DNA from: Muribaculaceae bacterium
GTDB taxonomy: Bacteria > Bacteroidota > Bacteroidia > Bacteroidales > Muribaculaceae
NCBI GenBank assembly: GCA_029058745.1
Contig: JAIDXM010000103.1
Location: forward strand, 1-64,000
Length of the DNA stretch: 64,000 nt
Direction of reading: 5' to 3'
Shown here: one piece after another, positions 4,680 through 10,732 of the stretch
Layout of the letters: the number at the start of each line of letters is the position of its first letter
How positions within the stretch are numbered: the first letter of the stretch is position 1
Notes under the pieces: model-generated
Database searches by the model: none
Told to the model about the DNA's origin: nothing
Seen by the model: the letters and a program-made list of their open reading frames with translations, nothing else
Program-made: the position numbers and the translations under genes

Positions 4680-4833
4680 ATGACCATAGGATATGCAAGG
4701 GTATCGACATCCGGACAGAACCTTGACGGACAGTGCGACAGTCTCCGGCAAGCCGGATGCGAGAGGATATACAGCGAGAAAATATCCGGAGCCAAGGCGC
4801 AGCGTCCGGAACTGGAGCGGATGCTCGACTTTT
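4680..4833 (+). pseudogene. Serine recombinase (resolvase), 5' fragment only
   Basis: [20 protein letters not shown] followed by [20 protein letters not shown] and [10 protein letters not shown] is the start of the resolvase/invertase catalytic domain, with the nucleophilic Ser in YARVSTSGQ. Normal family members then continue with a GDxLVVxKLDRLxRS segment and a C-terminal helix-turn-helix, about 185-200 residues in all. Here the similarity ends at about residue 51 and the frame runs on through the antisense of an unrelated gene to a stop at 4914-4916. The gene is therefore truncated and inactive as a recombinase. Confidence 0.85.
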
Positions 4834-5222
4834 TTCTTCAGACCGAGAGCTTCCGTAACCTTAGCCCATATCTGTTTGAAGAAGCCGGCTATCCGCATCC
4901 CGCACATGGAGATTAACCAGTCGTTCCCATTTCCCTCCTTCTTGATTATGACCTCCTGACAATATTTTTCCGGAATCCTTTTCCCATTGGAGGGGTCTTT
5001 CCAAGGATACGGTTCAAACGTCACCGACCCGCCATTTAATATGTAGTCCTGACACTTCGGGTCAGACACCCCTATGATGACAAGCTCACGCAAGAGCCTT
5101 GTCTCCTCGGGATGCCTCCGTTCCAAAGCCGAATGCACTCCTGAAACTGTTTTCTCCAACAGCTTCTTGTCTGCCTCGGCAAAAGTTATTAAATCATGTT
5201 TAAACTTTTTCCCGTTTGTCAT
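4834..5222 (-). pseudogene. Unknown gene, 3' end lost at the recombinase junction
   Basis: On the minus strand an open frame runs from 5222 to a stop at 4581. Only the first 130 or so residues (MTNGKKFKHDLITFAEADKK to about [13 protein letters not shown]) look like genuine protein; the rest is the antisense of the recombinase fragment. The authentic part is charged and soluble, with an N-terminal helical segment (DKKLLEKTVSGVHSALERRH) and no signal peptide. I do not recognise the family. The lost C-terminus and the lost recombinase 3' end meet at about 4828-4836, pointing to one deletion or insertion event. Confidence 0.55.
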
Positions 5223-5298
5223 GTCACATTTCAGGGGGAAGAAAATTCCACGACACTCAGGTTACTTCTCCCGACACACAGAATTTACTATATAGATT

Positions 5299-7752
5299 AT
5301 GAACTTAAGATTTCTGATGCCCTTATGCGCGGGCATCATACCTCTTGCGACATATGCGGCCGGCGATGTCTCCGGCAAGGTCATCAATAAAGAATCCGGA
5401 GCTCCTATGGATTTCGCGACAGTGCAACTCGTTGACGCAAACACAGGCAAGCCACTCCCGATAGGCACCAACACCGATGAGGACGGAGCCTTCATACTCA
5501 AAGGAGTGAAAGACGGCACATATATTGTCCGCGTATCCAATATAGGCAGCGTGGCACAGGAACGCCAAGTCAATGTCAAAGGAGGAGATGTCAGTATTGG
5601 CACGATAATCATGGCCGACGACACTAAGCTACTACAGGAAGTTGTGGTGGAAGGGGTGAGAAGCCAGATGCGTTTCGAACTTGACAGGAAAGTCTTCACC
5701 GTTGACGCAAACGTCACAGCCGCCGGACAGTCCGCCTCCGAACTGCTGGAATCAATCCCTTCCGTCGAAGTAGATCAGGACGGTGAAGTTTCGCTCAGAG
5801 GGAACTCCTCTGTCACTGTCTGGATCAACGGTAAAGAGTCTGGTCTTACTGCCGACAACAGGGCACAGATTCTCGAGCAGATTCCGGCTGAGACAATCGA
5901 CCGTATTGAAGTCATCACTAATCCCTCGGCCAAATATAGTCCGGAAGGGACTGCCGGAATCATCAACATAGTACTCAAGAAAGACCGCAAGGCCGGATAT
6001 TATGGAAGCGCTGAAATCGGTGTCAACTCGAGAGGGGGAGGCAACCTTGGCGCCAACATAAATCTCAATTCTTCAAAAGTGGATGCATATGCCGGCGTGG
6101 GGTTCAGAATGAGACACGCAAAGGGAGGCTCAGCCATGAACCGCGTGTTTGATGACGGCACATTCACCAACTCCTCAGGAGAAAGTCCAAGCCATGGCAA
6201 CGGACTGTTCTTCCGTCTCGGGGCAACATATCACCTCACCGATAAAGATGACATATATGCCAACGGATTCGGAATGCTCGGTCACAACTGGGGACGCTCA
6301 ACAACACTCTACTCATCGAACGTGCCAGGCAACTGGACGCTCAACAACGATATCTCAAGAAACCGTCGGGACAATCATGGAATGCATATCGAAGCCGGAT
6401 ACTCCCACAAATGGTCGGACTCCCACACCCTCGACGTCAACGGCGCCTACAACAACTGGGGCGGCCCGAACTGGAGGTCATATTTTGAGGATATCGAATA
6501 TACCGACCGTAAGGAAGAAAAGTACCAGGAGCAGAACATGGATATGGGCACACGTTCATGGGAAGCCAAAGTGGATTACACCAACCAGATGACGGAATGG
6601 CTGAAACTGGAAGCGGGATACAACGGCAACTATAATTACGAGAATACTCCCACTGACACTTATTCCGGCACCTCACAGGCAGATATGGTACAGAACCAAG
6701 CCCTTTACAACCGATTCATATATCGCAATAATATATCAGCATTCTATGCGACACTGGGTGGAAAAGTAGATAAGTTCAGCTTCTCGGCAGGCCTTCGCGC
6801 GGAATCCTGGCAGGTAAGGACCCGTTCCCTCTCATTCGGAGAAAAGGAAAGTGATGTGGATGAGTTCCGCAAAAACAATTTTGCCCTCTTTCCAAGCGCA
6901 TTCGTGTCATGGTCGTTGCCACACGACAACGAAATGCAACTTAACTTCACACGACGCATACGTCGTCCATGGGGAGGGCAACTCAACTCGTTCCGTGACA
7001 TATCCAACCCCACCAATATCTCCTACGGCAATCCGGAACTACAGCCTCAGTATTCAAATGCTTTCGAGCTTAATTACATCAAAAGCTGGACTTTCCATAT
7101 GGTCAGTCTGTCGGCATACATGCGCACAAGTACCGACATGATGAACCGTATAAGCTATCTGGACGGTGATGTGATGTACACCACCTGGGCAAACGTAGCC
7201 GACGAATTGAACTCCGGTTGTGAGATTGTGGCGAAAAATTCCCTTTTCAGAAGTCGCCTCGACCTTACCACCACTGTGAATCTCTATAACAACCATATCA
7301 GCGCATGGAACTACGACTTCAAATCGGAAAGCGGCAACCTGATTCCGTTGAACGGAGAGAAACAGAACAGCTTCGCCTGGGATGCCCGCATGATGGCGAA
7401 TGTGCGTCTCCCTTGGTCGATATCTTTCCAGGCTACAGGCAACTACAATTCCAAGATGCTCTCCGCACAGGGTTCCCGTCAAGGTGGATGGAGTGTTGAC
7501 CTCGGTGTCCGCAGAGTGTTCGGTCCATGGTCTCTTTCGCTTAACTGCCGCGACCTGTTCGATTCCCGTAAATTCAAAAGCACAACCACCGGGCCCGACT
7601 ATACCCAATACGACGAACGATGGAGAAACGGACGAACCGTACGCCTCACTCTAAAATTCTCATTCGGAAACATGAATGCCAAGCAGGGACGCGACCAGGG
7701 CGGTGAGGCCATGGATGCCAACAGCAGCTATGGCGACGGTGGAGAAATCTGA
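5299..7752 (+). CDS. TonB-dependent receptor family protein (OMP_b-brl_3 type)
   Basis: The 817-residue protein has a signal peptide (MNLRFLMPLCAGIIPLATYA), a carboxypeptidase-regulatory-like domain (about 22-105, GKVINKESGAPMDFATVQLV), a plug (about 112-215, with SASELLESIPSVEVDQDGEV and RIEVITNPSAKYSPEGTAGI, the hallmark of this family), and a barrel containing FTRRIRRPWGGQLNSFRDIS and GNPELQPQYSNAFELNY. It ends with a soluble acidic tail rich in Asp/Gly. It acts in the outer membrane. The ligand is unknown and no SusD lies beside it. It is a distant paralogue of the receptor at 434-2758. Confidence 0.88.
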   Translation: MNLRFLMPLCAGIIPLATYAAGDVSGKVINKESGAPMDFATVQLVDANTGKPLPIGTNTDEDGAFILKGVKDGTYIVRVSNIGSVAQERQVNVKGGDVSIGTIIMADDTKLLQEVVVEGVRSQMRFELDRKVFTVDANVTAAGQSASELLESIPSVEVDQDGEVSLRGNSSVTVWINGKESGLTADNRAQILEQIPAETIDRIEVITNPSAKYSPEGTAGIINIVLKKDRKAGYYGSAEIGVNSRGGGNLGANINLNSSKVDAYAGVGFRMRHAKGGSAMNRVFDDGTFTNSSGESPSHGNGLFFRLGATYHLTDKDDIYANGFGMLGHNWGRSTTLYSSNVPGNWTLNNDISRNRRDNHGMHIEAGYSHKWSDSHTLDVNGAYNNWGGPNWRSYFEDIEYTDRKEEKYQEQNMDMGTRSWEAKVDYTNQMTEWLKLEAGYNGNYNYENTPTDTYSGTSQADMVQNQALYNRFIYRNNISAFYATLGGKVDKFSFSAGLRAESWQVRTRSLSFGEKESDVDEFRKNNFALFPSAFVSWSLPHDNEMQLNFTRRIRRPWGGQLNSFRDISNPTNISYGNPELQPQYSNAFELNYIKSWTFHMVSLSAYMRTSTDMMNRISYLDGDVMYTTWANVADELNSGCEIVAKNSLFRSRLDLTTTVNLYNNHISAWNYDFKSESGNLIPLNGEKQNSFAWDARMMANVRLPWSISFQATGNYNSKMLSAQGSRQGGWSVDLGVRRVFGPWSLSLNCRDLFDSRKFKSTTTGPDYTQYDERWRNGRTVRLTLKFSFGNMNAKQGRDQGGEAMDANSSYGDGGEI

Positions 7753-8409: not shown

Positions 8410-8752
8410 AGCTTCACTGTCTTTTGCTGTGATTCAGACATGTCGCATTGCCACACTCCGCATCACAATATTCTTATAATTAAAACAATAAGCAGGCCTA
8501 TAAAGTTGCAAAGTTGCCACCTGCCGTCTGTTGTAACATTATCTATTCCACTACCCTGACAAACCTGACAATATTTCAACAATAACATGCAAACAACCGG
8601 TTCATACAATAAAATGACCTTCCCATACATCACACCTGAACTTTTTTGGATTACGGCATGATGTGTGGCTAACTTTGCATCGTCTTTGAAAATCGAAGAT
8701 AGAAGATTTCAAAAATGAAGCTTCTTATTTACACAATCAAACAATCAAAAAA
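8410..8752. other. Intergenic region between divergent genes
   Basis: These 343 bp separate the divergent genes at 8409 and 8753. Apart from the promoter at 8645-8677 I see no gene, tRNA or strong hairpin. The transcript of the rightward gene would have a leader of about 70 bases. Confidence 0.6.
8645..8677 (+). promoter_or_regulatory. Full Bacteroidetes promoter (TTTG-N21-TAACTTTG)
   Basis: TTTG at 8645-8648 and TAACTTTG at 8670-8677 are 21 bp apart, a near-perfect match to the Bacteroidetes -33/-7 promoter. It drives the duplicated-domain protein and possibly the LytTR pair downstream. Confidence 0.7.
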
Positions 8753-9367
8753 ATGAAAACTTATTTTTCCAAGATGATCTCTATCATCATGCTCACAGTA
8801 GCATTCTTCGCAACATCCAACGCGCAGGCAACATCTATAATGCCCAATTCTATTGTGGTAGAGCAGACTGCGACTCTCAGCAACGGTAAATCCGTGACCA
8901 TCTACTACCAGAAAGACGGCAACGACATCGAGGTATATTCCGAGGATGAGCTGAATGGATACTCAATCAACGACCTATGCACACTGCAGTCAACAAGCTT
9001 ACGAATCGTGAGCCAGGTGAAAGGGAAACGAGTTTATCACACCACAATGGCAAATGCACTTGGAATCATCAATAATCAGAAAGGCATTGCCGGTCAACTC
9101 ATGTCAATGCTGCCGACTTCGATTGTGGTGGAACAGACCGCGACTCTCAACAATGGCAAATCCATGACCATCTACTACAAAAAAGATGGCGAACACTGCG
9201 AGGTATTTTCAGAGGATAATCTGGATGGATACTCAGTCAACGATCTCAGCAAAGTTCAGTCAACGAGCTTACGCATCGTGAGTCAGGCGAAAGGGAAACG
9301 CGTTTACCATGACACAATGGCAAATGCACACCGAATCTTCAAAAGGCTTGTAAACACTTATCTGTAA
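8753..9367 (+). CDS. Secreted protein with a tandemly duplicated unit, unknown function
   Basis: This 204-residue protein has a signal peptide (MKTYFSKMISIIMLTVAFFA, ending near SNAQA). The mature part is two near-identical copies of one unit, residues 33-104 and 123-194. Each begins SIVVEQTATL and runs through NGKS, TIYY, KDG, SED, GYS, NDL, QSTSLRIVSQ and KGKRVYH to TMANA. The copies start 90 residues (270 bp) apart and stay similar at the DNA level, so the duplication is recent or homogenised. I do not recognise the domain. The LytTR gene starts 62 bp downstream on the same strand and may regulate it. Confidence 0.7.
   Translation: MKTYFSKMISIIMLTVAFFATSNAQATSIMPNSIVVEQTATLSNGKSVTIYYQKDGNDIEVYSEDELNGYSINDLCTLQSTSLRIVSQVKGKRVYHTTMANALGIINNQKGIAGQLMSMLPTSIVVEQTATLNNGKSMTIYYKKDGEHCEVFSEDNLDGYSVNDLSKVQSTSLRIVSQAKGKRVYHDTMANAHRIFKRLVNTYL
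8849..9334 (+). repeat. Two direct coding repeats, period 270 bp
   Basis: Bases 8849-9064 and 9119-9334 encode the two copies of the unit in the secreted protein. Long identical blocks remain, for example GCGACTCTCA and GACCATCTACTAC in both copies, which points to tandem duplication inside the gene. Confidence 0.8.
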
Positions 9368-9429
9368 GCGATAGGAAGCATTTATAATCCAACAGACAAT
9401 TATAAGGAATGAGTGCCGTTACCTAATAT

Positions 9430-9810
9430 ATGGAATGGCTTAAAATCACTACATCTACCGAACTTGTAAGGGTTGCCGTTGACGAAATAGTATATATCAT
9501 CGCCGACGGCAACTACTGCGACCTTATGCTTGCCAACGGCACATCACACAAGATGACGTTCCAGCTTCACTATTTCGAGGATTATTTCCAAAAGTTGAGC
9601 CATAACACCTTTTCCAGAGTAGGAAGAAGCCTGATTGTCAACAAACGACATATACGCGTGATAAACGTGCCGGAAAGGGTGATACGTTTCGGCGGACACA
9701 CCGTTGACTCAAAAATACCCACACTGCGTCTGGCTAAACTCGGACGGGTTTCATTAAAGACTCTTAAAGACGAAATGACAGAATATGAAGACCGACCAAA
9801 GACTGATTGA
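9430..9810 (+). CDS. Stand-alone LytTR DNA-binding regulator
   Basis: The 126-residue protein is almost wholly a LytTR domain. EIVYIIADGNYCDLMLANG matches the first strands, FSRVGRSLIVNKRHIRVIN matches the signature F.R.HRSYLVN region of LytTR proteins, and a C-terminal tail follows. There is no receiver domain, so it is not a classical LytR/AgrA response regulator. Its 3' end overlaps the next gene by 26 bp, so translation is probably coupled. Stand-alone LytTR regulators paired with a membrane protein form LytTR regulatory systems in Firmicutes; a similar role here is inference. Confidence 0.85.
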   Translation: MEWLKITTSTELVRVAVDEIVYIIADGNYCDLMLANGTSHKMTFQLHYFEDYFQKLSHNTFSRVGRSLIVNKRHIRVINVPERVIRFGGHTVDSKIPTLRLAKLGRVSLKTLKDEMTEYEDRPKTD

Positions 9811-10732
9811 TATTGACGATGAGAACCGTCATGATGACCGTCCTGTGGAAGTGCCGGTATTCTCCATTGAATCCTCCGGCACAACTGCCGATAAAACAGC
9901 ATCCGAATCAATAGGACAACATATAAAGAAACTACCTTATATCATCTCCATCGTGTCTGCATTGGCATTATCCCTATGCGTAGCGTGGATTCTGGCCAAT
10001 CGCCATTGGGGTCAGTTAATCGACACTGAGTCTTCGGTGTCCGACAAAGAGAACATCGTCAGGCTCCGACAAGACTATCGCGCCGTCGCGAAAGGCACTG
10101 AAATGACTTCTGACAGTGTGTTTGGCGTAGCATTTGACATGTATTCTATCGAAGGACTCAAAGCATCTCTTGAACGGGAATTCCCCGACACCACTGATGG
10201 AAGTCTCGTGCTGTTCATGCGCAGTTCTGACTATCATCCCGACAAAAGCTGGATTGGGGATGTGGTGATTGACGGAGTGAGACACAAGGACAAAGAGAAG
10301 AACCGTGCCGCATATGTTGCCATCTCCCAAAGTGGATACCCAGTGATAGGCATTTCCATTAACGACGATGTAATTGGCCATGTAGAGAAGTATGGTGGTC
10401 ACTTCTTCCGTCAGTTCGTATTATTAGGAAACGGGGAGCTCCCATCAAAGTTCTCACTACATGGGAAAGTGGAACGTGCCGCTATCGGGAGGAAAGAAGA
10501 TGGAAAACTATACTATATTATGACACGCCACCGCGAAACCATGTATGACTTCGCCGATGCACTACGCGAATACGGATTTATGGACGCTGTGTATATAACC
10601 GGAGGGAACAGCTATTCCTTCTATCGCGACAAGCAAGGAGCGGCACACGTAACGGATAAGGTAAGAGAAAAATATTCTGAATATAAAGATTCCACACCTC
10701 CTGCCCCTCTGCTCGTATTCCGCAATAAATAG
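9785..10732 (+). CDS. Membrane-anchored NAGPA-like (phosphodiester glycosidase family) protein
   Basis: This 315-residue protein has a charged N-terminal cytoplasmic part (1-48), one transmembrane segment (about 52-71, IISIVSALALSLCVAWILAN) and a periplasmic domain (about 75-315). The C-terminal half resembles NAGPA/phosphodiester glycosidase domains: ERAAIGRKEDGKLYYIMTRH, then a helix (MYDFADALREYGFMDAVYIT) and GGNSYSF in place of the usual LDGGGS motif. The altered motif makes catalysis doubtful. The gene overlaps the LytTR gene, which suggests that the protein senses an envelope signal and controls that regulator. This function is inferred, and the family call is of medium strength. Confidence 0.6.
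   Translation: MKTDQRLIDIDDENRHDDRPVEVPVFSIESSGTTADKTASESIGQHIKKLPYIISIVSALALSLCVAWILANRHWGQLIDTESSVSDKENIVRLRQDYRAVAKGTEMTSDSVFGVAFDMYSIEGLKASLEREFPDTTDGSLVLFMRSSDYHPDKSWIGDVVIDGVRHKDKEKNRAAYVAISQSGYPVIGISINDDVIGHVEKYGGHFFRQFVLLGNGELPSKFSLHGKVERAAIGRKEDGKLYYIMTRHRETMYDFADALREYGFMDAVYITGGNSYSFYRDKQGAAHVTDKVREKYSEYKDSTPPAPLLVFRNK

Follow-up and report, generated by a model that had tools for sequence, protein, structure and literature searches.

Analysis of the window, the whole 64,000-nucleotide stretch of a Muribaculaceae genome considered here, favours, with a probability of about 0.7, a switch of the LytTR Regulatory System (LRS) type in a Bacteroidales form, in which a NAGPA pseudo-enzyme serves as the sensor. 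In this model, a soluble LytTR protein would bind two TTCATACA-like half-sites located 21 bp apart on the same face of the helix and, positioned 39-40 bp upstream of the -7 box, would activate transcription, as suggested by the association of the site with the pair and by its fixed geometry. The site in the window's own genome may drive a gene termed c4 and then, by read-through, lytTR and the membrane gene behind it, producing positive feedback. The short cytoplasmic N-terminal tail of the membrane protein could hold the regulator, inactive, at the membrane, and the least certain step is the last, by which binding of a periplasmic ligand, perhaps an envelope glycosyl-phosphodiester, to the degenerate NAGPA domain would free the regulator. 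The features involved, all on the forward strand, are as follows.

8601..8608 (+): operator half-site 1, TTCATACA (YYATACA pairs in 8/8 loci of the window's clade)
8622..8629 (+): operator half-site 2, CCCATACA, 21 bp after half-site 1 (exact YYATACA-N14-YYATACA match)
8645..8648 (+): -33-like TTTG (sequence match only)
8670..8677 (+): putative -7 box TAACTTTG, 40 nt past the operator (match to the NAnnTTTG pattern)
8753..9367 (+): c4 protein, with one domain present in tandem copies; predicted target, encoded first in the operon (N-terminus signal-peptide-like by eye)
9430..9810 (+): stand-alone LytTR DNA-binding regulator, 126 aa (open reading frame and profile match)
9785..10732 (+): 315-aa membrane partner, single-pass, with a NAGPA-fold domain; its first 26 bp lie within lytTR
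9851..9871 (+): motif VPVFSIE of the N-tail (residues 23-29), a candidate for contact with the regulator (alignment)
9935..10009 (+): membrane helix, residues 51-75 (DSSP on the model, and sequence)
10103..10729 (+): NAGPA-fold domain, residues 107-315 (profile and model), probably periplasmic
10598..10612 (+): degenerate motif TGGNS, residues 272-276, replacing DGGGS (alignment)

The initial annotation had described a 126-residue LytTR protein without receiver domain whose gene overlaps by 26 bp that of a NAGPA-like protein with one membrane helix, and coordinates and profiles confirm this description. A Pfam scan of the 126 residues found PF04397 alone and no receiver domain, which rules out a two-component response regulator; the four other LytTR matches in the same genome lie in open frames of 239-260 aa. 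The overlap suggests that lytTR and the membrane gene lie in one operon, and the positive charges preceding the helix suggest that the N-terminus of the partner is inside the cell. The expected conservation of the two genes as neighbours holds across the family and several other Bacteroidales families, by counts of both adjacency and spacing. Among 297 family genomes, 66 matched the window's membrane protein as query; a search with profile A1 returned 57 genomes with E below 1e-45, a fragment in G269 (2.3e-25) and otherwise weaker matches, and the 66 genomes minus eight weak ones constitute the 58 “partner genomes” referred to below. LytTR lies directly upstream of the partner in 28 of the 30 family loci fetched with the window protein (the two misses being the G269 fragment and a contig end in G211), in 4/4 further family loci, in 6/6 loci of named genomes and in 12 of 13 order-level loci (the pair of G595 is divided between two contigs), and is also found beside the partner in G091 and G052, these counts covering the loci listed rather than all 58 partner genomes. 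In an order sample of 393 genomes, 23 match at E <= 1e-6; at E <= 4e-45 there are 14, including the window's own, and in 13 of these the match adjoins a LytTR match, G595 again being split over contigs. In a phylum sample of 296 genomes, no genome other than the window's own matched at E <= 1e-15, an absence that does not amount to proof.

In 67 enlarged loci, the spacing of all 51 measurable pairs (one of which, L070, has a partner of just 143 aa) falls between -29 and +18 nt, with start codons picked closest to the lytTR stop, a choice that favours small gaps. The overlap noted in the window recurs: 40 of the 51 pairs overlap, most commonly by 4 nt (24 pairs) and in seven cases by 26 nt. A chance neighbourhood of the two genes was considered and is rejected by this spacing in 51/51 pairs.

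That the second protein is NAGPA-like was upheld, since the window partner exceeds the NAGPA profile cut-off and its structure model matches the same fold; NAGPA is matched by 34/34 partner rows at E <= 0.01 and is the sole Pfam family shown at that threshold. The degeneracy of DGGGS, initially seen as GGNS in the window, extends throughout as the loss of its Asp: alignments place DGGGS in 3ohg, 6ozd, 6u11 and 6pku, and the Asp is missing in 52/52 partner rows, its position being occupied by V, T, I, C, S or P. These 52 rows count one locus twice (L012 and L095) and leave out a 53rd, non-partner row, which comes from a distinct NAGPA protein of 440 aa in L122. All 52 partner rows keep the Arg of HPR, and FFRQ does not vary among the 34 rows of A1. 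As the pocket seems to be kept and the signature lost, the domain is probably a sensor rather than an enzyme.

The N-terminal tail carries a motif in 50 of 51 partners, of an IRVIS type in 37 and a PVISIE type in 13, the patterns having been drawn up after the tails were viewed and hence being a description, not a test. Two natural variants carry this tail or a similar one beside other or missing periplasmic parts. In L069, a TonB_C protein (5040-5561; PF03544, 4.5e-7) overlaps its lytTR by 4 bp (pair at 4687-5561) and begins with MKDEINENEVYFLG, resembling the tail motif. In G225, a short partner form consists of EIGENEIRVI and a terminal membrane helix with no NAGPA domain, beside a LytTR of the right type (5e-49), and an exact operator comes after it (L148, 338-1189). 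Separately, stand-alone LytTR relatives in L071-L080 (e.g., L077, 501-4733) adjoin a protein with membrane helices and an FHA domain, recognised by Pfam in L077 and weakly in L071, followed in several loci by genes that by eye resemble FHA, PP2C and Ser/Thr-kinase genes. The FHA-domain protein may represent a second type of LytTR partner, one without the TTCATACA operator in L071-L080.

LytTR-type direct repeats had been anticipated before 8753, and they were found at 8601-8608 and 8622-8629, where two YYATACA words stand exactly 21 bp apart in front of c4 in 8/8 loci of the window's clade. In the window, YCATACA-N14-YCATACA has two matches at <=1 mismatch versus 0.13 expected, a number reached by 2 of 100 shuffles, and its one exact match is the site before 8753. 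The looser YYATACA-N14-YYATACA has one exact match in the own genome, the same site, versus two for the backward control, and 12 versus 7 in six genomes; this word by itself is hardly enriched, and the weight of the site derives from where its copies stand. With respect to TTCATACA-N13-TTCATACA, the own-genome site carries two mismatches. Table 3 of PMC6193735 gives the Bacteroidales promoter consensus for two operons of Bacteroides.

In 53 pair loci (633 kb), pairs of TTCATACA at <=1 mismatch occur 44 times at a period of 21 bp, three times at 20 and once at 17, and at none of the remaining periods of 10 to 35, and they are missing at all periods from 11 loci in which a related LytTR is paired with an FHA or TonB_C protein. 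Against a clean split by partner, however, a one-mismatch site at 4756-4784 of L151 (G269) precedes an FHA-type lytTR by 623 nt, and no open reading frame of 60 aa was picked between the two. Shuffled cores (199) gave a mean of 0.22 sites of period 20-22 and a maximum of 16, versus 47 for the real word, and the maximum might be explained by a shifted word such as TCATACAT, itself a shuffle. The 297 family genomes contain 124 matches to TTCATACA-N13-TTCATACA at <=1 mismatch versus 28 for the backward control (counted from the table). Of 40 exact sites, 37 fall in the 58 partner genomes, 27 of them within 10 kb of the pair, and the others comprise one in G095 and two in the remaining 231 genomes (G033 and G225). 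By genome, exact operators occur in 31/58 partner genomes versus 3/239 others (Fisher p 1e-22, uncorrected for kinship). The association has exceptions on both sides: ten of the 58 partner genomes, the own included, have no such site at <=1 mismatch, 49 one-mismatch sites sit in 37 partner-less genomes, and in G033 an exact operator precedes c3 and a split c2, but the genome gave no LytTR of the pair type at E <= 1e-8.

A NAnnTTTG box follows the operator at 39 nt in 54 cases and at 40 nt in 10, together 64 of 83 sites, a sample in which 18 of the scanned loci had been fetched around sites or pairs to this end and many sites come from related genomes. A direct activator would need such phasing of operator and box. 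The possibility that the direct repeats arose by chance is rejected by the period spectrum, the link to partner genomes and the constant spacing between operator and -7 box. In 15 loci (L067, L068, L070, L081-L084, L093, L095, L099, L103, L104, L108, L112 and L113), the operator stands <=200 nt upstream of lytTR itself; two of these loci (L067 and L068) showed no membrane partner. A recurrent variant site, TTCATACATTAATC...TTCATCCA, was observed in the partner-less genomes G164, G286 and G264, with several copies in the first two; such sites perhaps belong to another regulator.

The genes behind the sites vary by lineage. In the window's clade, c4 precedes lytTR in 8/8 loci, as a single-domain orthologue in the other seven; it is tandem-duplicated in the window (8753-9367) and single-domain in nine aligned relatives. 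In two other genera (G018 and G079), the single operator match precedes a c29-c4 operon. In a larger clade, the site stands before a c3-c2 operon, comprising a lipoprotein-like gene and a large gene: 15 of 17 c3 genes have the operator at <=2 mismatches, and the remaining two (L106 and L122) have it, by eye, with three. Judged from one representative each, and two for c4, c3 and c2, the genes behind sites include c4, c29 (DUF4846), c28 (CreD), c16 (alpha-2-macroglobulin), c24 (TPR and aspartyl protease), c19 (M23 peptidase), c13 (WG repeats) and c3-c2 (no family). Several match no known family; the scanned proteins of c4, c3 and c2, two of each, gave no Pfam match over cut-off. Several of the genes behind sites, predicted outputs in relatives, encode envelope proteins, and the signal may for this reason come from the envelope as well. 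Some further arrangements were noted beside the pair. A second site lies before a nearby M23 peptidase gene in L117 (12542-12570) and L036 (5310-5338). In L099, L100, L101 and others, a GC-rich terminator-like hairpin was seen by eye between the operator and the -7 box of c3 or c16, and because of this position the terminator of the partner may overlap the next promoter. In L038, luxS (8960-9442; PF02664, 1.3e-58), also recognised by similarity in L040 and L041, begins 2 bp past, or 4 bp inside, the end of the partner gene.

Other explanations of the pair can be weighed against this body of evidence. The NAGPA domain could be an active periplasmic phosphodiester glycosidase, co-transcribed for a shared response while LytTR is governed otherwise. 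The fold, Arg 231, FFRQ and glycines are indeed retained in the partner domain, and one alignment leaves the Asn of DNG opposite the Asn of the canonical NGGFF-like motif (NGSFF) in 38/53 rows, the 6pku alignment placing the stretch differently. However, the two Phe are not seen opposite the motif, and the Asp of DGGGS is lost in every partner row; in addition, the domain-less form of G225 retains tail and helix, and the TonB_C protein coupled to a related LytTR begins with a similar tail, so that an active enzyme would be very improbable. A membrane co-activator is another alternative: a NAGPA protein required for LytTR activity, presenting LytTR at the membrane without inhibiting it, would give the same anatomy, and the overlap and tail motif suit any tight contact. 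Such presentation occurs in ToxR/TcpP-like systems. Nevertheless, operators before lytTR itself make sense with a brake, and the membrane partners studied in the sections of PMC6193735 consulted are inhibitors, which makes co-activation unlikely.

A further scenario, rather doubtful, would have the c4 and c3-c2 proteins, beyond being targets, also bind the NAGPA domain as ligands or modulate it by feedback. The constant position of c4 before lytTR in the window's clade, and the own genome's exact site in the c4 promoter, agree with this. However, G182 and G238 possess the partner without c4, and no PDB structure matched the c4 model (mean pLDDT 67.4) at E <= 0.001. The absence of c4 from G182, and from G269 with its partner fragment, also counts against the LRS-type switch. 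Returning to the LRS-type switch, the natural variants allow a broader and more tentative proposal, namely a modular class of Bacteroidales transmembrane signalling in which a tail motif ([DE]I-x-[DE]-x-E-I-R-V-I or PVISIE) and one helix might clamp a stand-alone LytTR activator while the periplasmic part is swapped (NAGPA pseudo-enzyme, TonB_C or nothing). Where that part is NAGPA, an inactivated phosphodiester glycosidase might have been re-used as a receptor for an envelope sugar-phosphodiester, turning on envelope-defence genes (alpha-2-macroglobulin, CreD, M23 peptidase, DUF4846, TPR-aspartic protease, c3-c2 and c4) via one conserved operator.

The LRS is a little-studied signalling class, and what HdrRM and BrsRM actually respond to was still unknown in 2018 according to the consulted part of PMC6193735, where a section heading links BrsRM to purine metabolism. 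The partner described here has a recognisable ligand-binding fold, and as the operator can be given base by base and seemingly few genes in each genome are involved, the ligand, the contact motif and the output should lend themselves to direct testing in gut commensals. Should the pseudo-enzyme reading be right, an enzyme fold has here become a membrane receptor that serves a transcription factor. A pair common to many gut Bacteroidales, with a matching site before a neighbour gene, suggests a membrane-controlled switch, a type of system known until now chiefly from other bacteria. In the literature searched (titles and the beginnings of abstracts, with most subscription journals outside its scope), a LytTR-NAGPA membrane pair was not described.

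The initial annotation had likened the pair to the LRS of Firmicutes, a LytTR regulator and a membrane inhibitor in one operon. The anatomy of the pair agrees, with a receiver-less soluble LytTR, a membrane gene directly downstream and direct repeats before a promoter recognised by sequence match; the restriction to Firmicutes does not hold, as the sections of PMC6193735 consulted report LRS in many phyla, plus a different LRS-like operon in Bacteroides. In the same sections, the gene order and repeats seen here fit LRS, and the fold of the partner, the operator word and the target were not found. In the Streptococcus mutans systems as described there (HdrRM and BrsRM), a soluble LytTR regulator is likewise encoded directly upstream of a membrane protein, and positive feedback is implied; here, in contrast, the partner is single-pass with a NAGPA-fold domain, the half-site is TTCATACA rather than the ACCACTTAC-like words of Table 3, the promoter is of the Bacteroidales type, and c4 comes first in the operon. 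The Bacteroides LRS-like operons (Btheta7330_RS19920/19915), as presented in those sections, share with the pair a Bacteroidales host, membrane and LytTR proteins, and direct repeats before the promoter; however, their membrane gene (NfeD-like and DUF2154) comes first and their LytTR has several membrane segments, whereas here the order is reversed and the 126-aa LytTR has none. Proteins of the NAGPA/DUF2233 type (3ohg, BACOVA_00430; 6pku and 6u11, NAGPA) have the Asp of LDGGGS, which the partner lacks, its domain being linked instead, through a membrane helix, with a tail in the cytoplasm. Two-component LytTR response regulators, known for tandem direct repeats, have the LytTR domain in common with the regulator described here and differ from it by their receiver domain.
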